A DNA stretch of 64,000 nucleotides from Archivesica marissinica (taxonomy: Eukaryota > Mollusca > Bivalvia > Venerida > Vesicomyidae): contig CM026398.1 in NCBI GenBank assembly GCA_014843695.1, positions 14,987,391 through 15,051,390 on the forward strand, given 5' to 3'. Positions 2,632 through 5,600 of this stretch are shown one piece after another; positions within the stretch are counted from its first letter, which is position 1; each line of letters begins with the position of its first letter. The notes below the pieces were generated by a model. That model searched no databases. It worked only from the letters and a program-made list of their open reading frames with translations, and was not told the DNA's origin. The translations under genes and the position numbers were made by a program.

Positions 2632-5600
2632 CTGAAATGTACATGTCAGATACTGCAATATATAGTCCGCTGCCTCCTACGTGTTGGGTGCTGAAATATA
2701 CATGTACATGTCAGATACTGCAATATATAGGCCGCTGCCTCCTCATACGTGTTGGGTGCTGAAATATACGTGTACATGTCAGATACTGCAATATATAGGC
2801 CGCCGCCTCCTCATACGTGTTGGGTGCTGAAATATACGTGTACATGTCAGATACTGCAATATATAGGCCGCCGCCTCCTCCTACGTGTTGGGTGCTGAAA
2901 TATACATGTACATGTCAGATACTGCAATATATAGGCCGCTGCCTCCTCGTACTGTTGGGTGCTGAAATATACGAGTACATGTCAGATACTGCAATATATA
3001 GGCCGCCTCCTCCTCATACGTGTTGGGTGCTGAAATATACATGTACATGTCAGATACTGCAATATATAGGCCGCCGCCTCCTCATACGTGTTGGGTGCTG
3101 AAATATACGTAAGTATACTTACACATTACAATCTAGGAATATATATGTATATGTCACTTTAATAGGTTTTAATGTTTAATTAGAAATTTTTATTTAGTCT
3201 TGCAAGCTTCCAAGATCACAACAGTTTTAACTGGCTGAGAAGAAAGGCTGTAGGTGCTCCACTATGCATTGTGTCACAGACTCACAGTTTGACACCCATG
3301 GTCAGGTTGAAGCATACCGTGGCAGCAAACAAGTGATTTTAACCCACTTTAACAGAGGCATTTTAAAAACCAATTTACGAGTTAAGCAACATAAAATATT
3401 TGTATCATTTACGGGTGTATTCCGGGAAACAGATTTGTATCATTTACTGGTGTATTCCGGGAAACAGATTTACAAGTATCATTTACTGGTGTATTCCAGG
3501 AAACAAATTTACAAGTATCATTTACTGGTGTATTCCAGGAAACAGATTTACAAGTATCATTTACTGGTGTATTCCGGGAAACAGATTTACAAGAATCATT
3601 TACTGGTGTATTCCAGGAAACAGATTTACAAGTATCATTTACTGGTGTATTCTGGGAAACAGATTAACAAGTATCATTTACTGGTGTATTCCATGAAACA
3701 GATTTACAAGTATCATTTACTGGTGTATTCCGGGAAACAGATTTGTATCATTTACTGGTGTATTCCGGGAAACAGATTTACAAGTATCATTTACTGGTGT
3801 ATTCCAGGAAACAGATTTACAAGTATCATTTAGTGGTGTATTCCAGGAAACAGATTTACAAGTATCATTTACTGGTGTATTCCAGGAAACAGATTTACAA
3901 GTATCATTTACTGGTGTATTCCAGGAAACAAATTTACAAGTATCATTTACTGGTGTATTCCAGGAAACAGATTTACAAGTATCATTTACTGGTGTATTCC
4001 GGGAAACAGATTTACAAGAATCATTTACTGGTGTATTCCAGGAAACAGATTTACAAGTATCATTTACTGGTGTATTCTGGGAAACAGATTAACAAGTATC
4101 ATTTACTGGTGTATTCCATGAAACAGATTTACAAGTATCATTTACTGGTGTATTCCGGGAAACAGATTTGTATCATTTACTGGTGTATTCCGGGAAACAG
4201 ATTTACAAGTATCATTTACTGGTGTATTCCAGGAAACAGATTTACAAGTATCATTTACTGGTGTATTCCAGGAAACAGATTTACAAGTATCATTTACTGG
4301 TGTATTCCAGGAAACAGATTTACAAGTATCATTTCAGGGCCTGCTCTGGCTCTTATTTTTTTGTAGCCAATTATTTTTAGCCAAATCTGTGCTTCCTTTT
4401 TAGCCAATTCCGACGCGCGCCATTTCCCCAAACAGAGTTATTATAGTATATTTATTATAATATATTTTAATGTGTCATGCAATTGTACCACTTAAATGAT
4501 GTATGCCCATAGACTACAACTGAGGTAAGAGTAACATTTGCAGTGATACATTACTTGACAAGTTGTGTCAACTTTCATTTTCAGAATCATTTTAAAATGC
4601 ATTCCCAGGGTTAGACAGTTAGACTAGTGCTGCATGTCAACTGTGCACATTTTATTACATCACATAAGAAGACATTTGATCGGTTGGGTTAATGGTGTAA
4701 ACAAGATTTATTTGATTTACAGGGTACTGCTGCTCGAGATCAATTAACACCTGTCACTTATATTGCCAATACCTTTGCTCTATGCCAAATAAACATCCTG
4801 TTTTGATGGGATTACTCTGATTAGCTGTCAGGTTTAAAATTGGAATATTAAATATAATAAATGCCATGGCATGTAATAAATATCTATTATTTCTTTGATC
4901 ACAATTTCCAATTTTCGAATATTTTACAGATTTTTGTCGTTTTTATCATTTTAGCCAAACTGAGATTTTATTAGCCAATGTTGCCATATTTTAGCCAATG
5001 GCTACTCTGGCTATTGCCAGCGCGGGCCCTGCATTTACTGGTGTATTCCAGGAAACAGATTTACAAGTATCATTTACTGGTGTATTCCGGGAAACAGATT
5101 TGTATCATTTACTGGTGTATTCTGGGAAATAAATTTGTATCATTTACTGGTGTATTCTGGGAAACAGATTTGTATCATTTACTGGTGTATTCTGGGAAAT
5201 AAATTTTGAGAGTGGACCTCTTGATCTGCACTTCAAGCAAACGGTGTATTCTTGGAAACAAAACAATTGTTTCATTTACCCATGTATTCTGGGAAACAGA
5301 ACATCTGTATCAAGTACCTGTCTCTGCATTATGGGAAACAGAACATTTGTATCGCACTTACCTGTGTATTCCGGGAAACAGACACTGAGTGCGGACTTCT
5401 TGATCTTCTCTTCAAACAGATCTTTCTTGTTGAGGAAGAGAATAATTGATGTCTCCGTAAACCACTTGTTGTTGCAGATAGAGTCAAACAGTTTCATACT
5501 CTCCATCATACGATTCTGTAACAAGTAAAATATCACATCCTAACCTATCTAAATATTGATATCAATATCCTAACCCATCTAAATATTGATATTAATATCC

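Follow-up and report, generated by a model that had tools for sequence, protein, structure and literature searches.

Paired junction-derived minisatellites in intron 7 of a bivalve Gαi gene

The two exon/intron junctions of intron 7 in the Gαi gene of Archivesica marissinica have very probably each given rise to a mirage, a minisatellite seeded by tandem duplication across the junction. Mirages are described in PMC3087553 and PMC3902484 as minisatellite-like tandem duplications of an exon/intron boundary. In the model that we propose, one duplication would have taken in 21 nt of exon 7 together with about 19 nt of intron, and another about 35-42 nt of exon 8 together with the intron end. Because splicing removes copies that lie inside the intron, such duplications would be tolerated and able to grow. 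Growth would proceed via unequal exchange or slippage, and lately through the duplication of a 425-bp block. The intronic copies would be spliced out provided that splicing keeps to the outermost donor and acceptor, which alone adjoin a complete exon. For the Gαi gene itself, the repeats most likely serve no purpose.

The Gαi gene and its introns

The window, i.e. the whole stretch of 64,000 nucleotides that was analysed (contig C13 of a 1.54-Gb assembly), contains a complete Gαi gene on the minus strand. Its eight exons encode 354 amino acids plus a stop codon, and the exon borders follow the GT/AG rule (Table 1). Among the 120 listed of 819 relatives, the best named one is from Mercenaria mercenaria (96% identity), and further named relatives come from Mytilus (92%) and from Sinanodonta, Acanthopleura, Physella and Bradybaena (90% each). 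These identities point to a mollusc, probably a bivalve close to the venerids.

Table 1. Coordinates of the Gαi exons and of the parts of intron 7 in the window. A slash marks the exon/intron border.
Feature	Position	Strand	Remarks
Gnai exons 1-8	61981-61864, 54404-54362, 47475-47334, 18301-18144, 13101-12973, 9402-9273, 5515-5362, 2631-2441	-	
Gnai exon 7	5362..5515	-	154 nt; ends ...GAATACACAG/GTAAGT; source of the donor-side repeat (by sequence)
Three degenerate ~40-bp copies of exon 7 end and donor region	5246..5361	-	adjoining the exon
Long exon 7 copy, exon positions 68-152	5185..5269	-	85 nt, 72% identical
35-bp donor-mirage units	5032..5206	-	exon side of the inserted element
Inserted element, ~697 bp	4335..5031	.	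interrupts the donor array; ~16-bp terminal inverted repeats (CAGGGCC...GGGCCCTG); CATTT direct repeats at both ends
39/35-bp donor-mirage units	3402..4334	-	
Acceptor mirage	2632..3110	-	seven extra ~68-bp copies: intron end, TTTCAG/CACCCAACA, exon 8 start
Gnai exon 8, coding part to stop codon	2441..2631	-	source of the acceptor-side repeat (by sequence)

Tandem arrays make up 34% of the window (24 larger TRF arrays). Very long minisatellites lie in other introns of the gene, at 43267-47100 (22-bp units), 54584-56786 (20-bp units) and 50260-52058 (54-bp units). Intron 1 holds pieces of a hAT-like transposase on the plus strand at 58375-60036 (Dimer_Tnp_hAT, weak DUF659); for the last piece, the named relatives are two Paralvinella proteins, and closer ones are unnamed. 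Within intron 6, 14 nt lie between the end of a 30-bp array (5530-7230) and the exon 7 acceptor; exon 7 thus has an array on either side. An exon BLAST found no exon 7 copies in the intron 6 array.

Intron 7 is 2730 nt long and consists of the donor mirage (1263 nt), the acceptor mirage (479 nt), an inserted element (697 nt) and other sequence (291 nt), with limits that we set. Together, the two mirages account for 64% of the intron. The gene has 14 exon/intron boundaries, and exon copies adjoin two of them, both at intron 7; an exon BLAST of the window with E-values up to 1 revealed no exon copies beside the other twelve. Exons 2 and 7 also have weak matches far off in other introns, with E-values of 0.06 or worse. 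A listed array lies within 15 nt of two of the 14 boundaries (permutation P 0.02), one of them being the acceptor mirage; this number is small and we conclude nothing from it. Seven of the 91 possible boundary pairs share an intron, which gives a chance of about 0.08 that two mirages would do so, and their pairing may be coincidental.

The donor-side array

A 19-nt core, GTGTATTCCGGGAAACAGA, is located at 5364-5382 at the end of exon 7. It recurs with at most three mismatches at 31 further places, nine of them exact and all between 3415 and 5300 in intron 7, where shuffles of the window lead one to expect 0.02. This bears out the tie between the array and the end of exon 7 with its donor that had been proposed in an earlier, sequence-only reading of this DNA. 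TRF lists two blocks, one at 3402-4334 with 24.2 copies of a 39-bp unit and one at 5032-5206 with 4.9 copies of a 35-bp unit. The array unit comprises the last 21 nt of exon 7 and about 19 nt of intron, and its internal junction reads ACACCA/GTAAATG as compared with ACACAG/GTAAGTG at the true border. The motif CCA/GTAAAT is present in 27 units, close to the roughly 28 decoy donors counted earlier.

The identity with the exon had been put at 19 nt. The core is real, but the tie to the exon is longer, since one copy can be aligned with positions 68-152 of exon 7. Even when the query lacks the final 24 nt of the exon, the score of this long copy is 24, whereas the best of 2000 shuffles is 18 and the best of 2078 overlapping blocks elsewhere in the window is 17. 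Judged from the alignment, the long copy is better evidence than the 19-nt core that the direction was from exon to array. Together with the uniqueness of the core at up to one mismatch (see below) and the conserved, complete Gαi frame, it upholds the proposed origin of the array from the exon 7 end and donor.

The units that adjoin exon 7 are irregular and diverged, and their spacing turns regular further away. To this extent, the previously suggested gradient from seed to array stands. However, likeness to the exon does not drop with distance: eight of the nine exact cores lie at 3415-4201, the one nearest to the exon is at 5080-5098, and the five core matches that are closer still carry one to three mismatches. 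Much of the apparent degeneration looks like CpG decay, because the core's one CpG accounts for 24 of the 37 core differences among the 32 copies, although these are not independent events, as the units were copied from one another. At this position, 22 copies have TG or CA, nine have CG and one has AA.

The distal units form a 425-bp higher-order repeat, in which 3437-3909 matches 3862-4334 at a shift of 425 bp with two mismatches. Because the blocks differ at only these two sites, growth of the donor array was probably recent. The element that interrupts the array is probably a small non-autonomous DNA transposon.

The acceptor-side array

At the opposite end of intron 7 lies a second array, which had been overlooked by the earlier reading and is the mirror image of the donor array. 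About 35-42 nt of each of its units correspond to the start of exon 8. Eight acceptors, the true one and seven decoys, stand in register, with the first base after AG at 3097, 3029, 2961, 2894, 2826, 2758 and 2690 in the decoys and at 2631 in the true site. A CTGAC motif is found 20 nt upstream of six of the seven decoy acceptors, as opposed to 14 nt upstream of the true one. In a genome search, the acceptor array was confined to the Gαi locus.

Strength and consequence of the decoy splice sites

Donor sites were scored with a primate donor matrix. On this scale, the true exon 7 donor reaches 8.64 and is the best of the seven donors of the gene. The decoy motif CCA/GTAAAT scores -0.71 with the same matrix, compared with -0.69, -0.38 and -1.91 for the true donors of exons 1, 4 and 6. 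The 27 decoy donors are thus predicted to be weak beside their true neighbour, though not plainly inactive.

The seven decoy acceptors equal the true acceptor in their last bases. Because they match it in this way, and six of the seven have CTGAC upstream, correct splicing is, as far as these motifs allow a judgement, not explained by acceptor strength. We infer that the full exon context decides splice-site choice and would prevail over exon fragments, so that splicing is kept to the outer sites. Use of a decoy acceptor is predicted to yield products of 295-340 amino acids that lose the normal C-terminus, and any of the 27 decoy donors would lead to a product of 319 amino acids. A search for decoy-derived peptides among 5.8 billion proteins found none (one candidate, none scored), which is weak negative evidence.

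Alternative explanations

If the 19-nt core were part of a dispersed genomic repeat, its match to exon 7 could be due to chance or be secondary. The sequence-only reading had itself named a wider occurrence at unrelated loci as the finding that would speak against an exon origin. Indeed, when part of the donor array was used as a BLAST query, 15 of the 18 matches fell on other contigs (C19, C6, C4, C8 and C17) at 64-71% identity. The stretches examined, which were those on C19 and C6 and at three of the four C4 matches, contain 34-37 bp tandem arrays that have neither the core at up to four mismatches nor a Gα exon. The low E-values of these matches probably reflect a short similarity multiplied by the repeats. 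A pattern search of the whole 1.54-Gb assembly for the core found ten exact and 14 one-mismatch sites, and all 24 lie at the Gαi locus, exon 7 included. At exactly two mismatches, five sites lie at the locus and twelve are scattered elsewhere, a background to be set against 18 sites in all across the assembly for the reversed core pattern as a control. At the level tested, up to one mismatch in the whole assembly, the dispersed-repeat reading is refuted, and we regard it as exceedingly improbable. A different source of the exon similarity would be a decayed second copy of exon 7, once a tandem or mutually exclusive exon, with the minisatellite as its by-product. Here, the long copy is the most suggestive feature, as it spans exon 7 positions 68-152 and its last ~19 codons are, by eye, in frame (tblastn E 8e-4). 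Yet the similarity is limited to these positions and stops short of the exon start, so that an alternative exon with its own acceptor and donor was not found; 5305-5244 compared with exon positions 1-100 behaves like shuffled sequence (924 of 2000 shuffles reach its score). Moreover, the changes are, by eye, spread about evenly across codon positions, and a second exon 7 would leave the acceptor array unexplained. We therefore consider this origin highly unlikely.

The decoy sites might also be used, in which case shorter forms of Gαi would arise from the arrays, or splicing would be delayed by them as a regulatory switch. The likeness of the seven decoy acceptors to the true one and the shortened products that all of them predict agree with this idea, and PMC2812944 reports that alternative splicing can result from tandem repeats at exon-intron boundaries in humans. 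Against it, the corresponding peptides are absent from the database proteins searched, the predicted products vary from decoy to decoy and resemble frameshift noise, and lancelet mirages are reported in PMC3087553 and PMC3902484 to splice normally. Use of the decoy sites thus appears unlikely. A mirage pair seeded by duplications across the two junctions remains the explanation that we favour, and the duplication mechanism and the order of events are inferred parts of it.

Recurrence in other genes

The survey took in 30 of the 37 Gα exon matches found and, for kinesins, the best 30 of 125, and searched the 1500-nt flanks of each for copies of the exon. Ten of the 60 matches reached 30 bits, which only one of 6000 dinucleotide-shuffled flanks did. 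By inspection, copies of the boundary are present at seven of the 60 (L019 and L030, both in this window, and L024, L037, L042, L052 and L057) or at five of the 58 outside the window, a rough rate drawn from two gene families with exclusions by eye. Near-twin loci with equal family scores (L048/L049 and L020/L021) mean that these 60 matches are not 60 independent exons, and matches that end short of the exon ends would hide further mirages. Six of the seven cases are arrays, L024 holding two to three copies; L052, with one full copy including AG and a fragment, is a duplication and not an array. L014 and L073 were dropped by eye (array purely intronic, family match running into the intron), and L040, with a single 33-nt copy, is ambiguous.

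L042 (474-1545, on C5) belongs to another Gα gene and contains 12.5 copies of an 86-bp unit with the acceptor and the P-loop exon; a pattern search identified ten decoy copies beside the true exon, each with an extra G relative to it. At L057, a pattern requiring GTGAG finds eleven further donors, twelve in all. The single shuffled flank that passed the threshold scored 38.3 bits, above the best single score of L057 (36.8), and the case for L057 rests on its eleven copies. A kinesin exon at L074 (485-1162; C6:90884384-90885061), chosen because the match list showed an array and kept outside the count of 60, has six 113-bp copies of the acceptor and exon start, and three of its five decoy acceptors have ACAT in place of ACAG. 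In a cross-locus null, the Gα set gave scores of 212, 52.5, 48.3, 42.5 and 35.4 among 180 comparisons, with sources untraced, and the kinesin set gave 71.1 and 61.1 among 150, traced to a dispersed repeat.

From the surveyed matches with boundary copies, inside and outside the window, we conclude on sequence grounds that the junction-repeat process recurs in this genome. The origin of the donor array had been called unusual. This is not supported, since mirages have already been described, a second case occupies the opposite end of intron 7, and others occur in further genes of the genome.

Implications

Intron 7 represents what sequence comparison indicates to be a real and well-supported case of a mirage, present twice in one intron and recurring elsewhere in the genome, in a lineage for which we found no earlier report among open-licence papers. 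The frequency among these bivalve exon matches suggests that mirages are not a lancelet oddity. It is plausible, if short of probable, that intron growth through minisatellites seeded at junctions is widespread in some bivalves and arose independently of the lancelet case. Junctions would then act as tolerated seeds whose copies are spliced away, and introns would lengthen at both ends from the sequence of the exons that flank them, gathering near-perfect spare splice sites as they do so. If this is true, the spare sites could feed new introns or isoforms. For lancelets, PMC3087553 proposes that new introns may originate from mirages. The eight tandem acceptors of Gαi, the twelve donors of L057 and the six acceptors of L074 provide natural series of near-identical competing sites, which allow direct tests of splice-site choice and intron birth.

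Comparison with known systems

By their sequence anatomy, both arrays fit the definition of a mirage and are of a known kind. Each is a tandem unit that spans an exon/intron boundary and holds exon as well as intron with GT or AG. A complete exon stands at the outer end, as is evident from the intact 354-aa Gαi encoded by the eight exons. In addition, the donor array combines a homogenised interior (the 425-bp block) with a divergent edge (the exon-side copies), as does that of BflGb6. A search of the open-licence literature for a report of a mirage in molluscs found none.

A human gene offers a further parallel. In IFI6 (6-16, G1P3), Turri and co-workers reportedly described in 1995 a short-unit minisatellite with multiple splice donors that are used in transcripts. 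IFI6 resembles intron 7 in having a tandem repeat with repeated donors at the end of an exon, and differs in its short units and in donors with reported use, those of intron 7 being predicted sites.

In lancelets, PMC3087553 and PMC3902484 list mirages in Adh3, the globins BflGb6 and BflGb9, troponin C and PGBD5, the last two having been added by PMC3902484, and they report length differences between haplotypes together with undisturbed splicing. The lancelet mirages and the arrays of intron 7 have in common that they are tandem duplications of a boundary on the donor or acceptor side, that splice signals are found in many but not all copies, and that there is turnover within the cluster. In contrast to the lancelet cases, intron 7 belongs to a bivalve and not a cephalochordate, carries arrays at both of its ends and contains an inserted inverted-repeat element. 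It also has about 30 donor-side copies, compared with the 3 and 6 units given for BflGb6.

The creation of introns by tandem duplication of AG/GT segments has been put forward by Rogers 1989, Zhuo 2007 and Gao and Lynch 2009, as cited in PMC3087553. Internal duplications that carry splice signals are the raw material shared by that process and by intron 7. There, however, a new intron is made, whereas in the Gαi gene an existing intron has grown.
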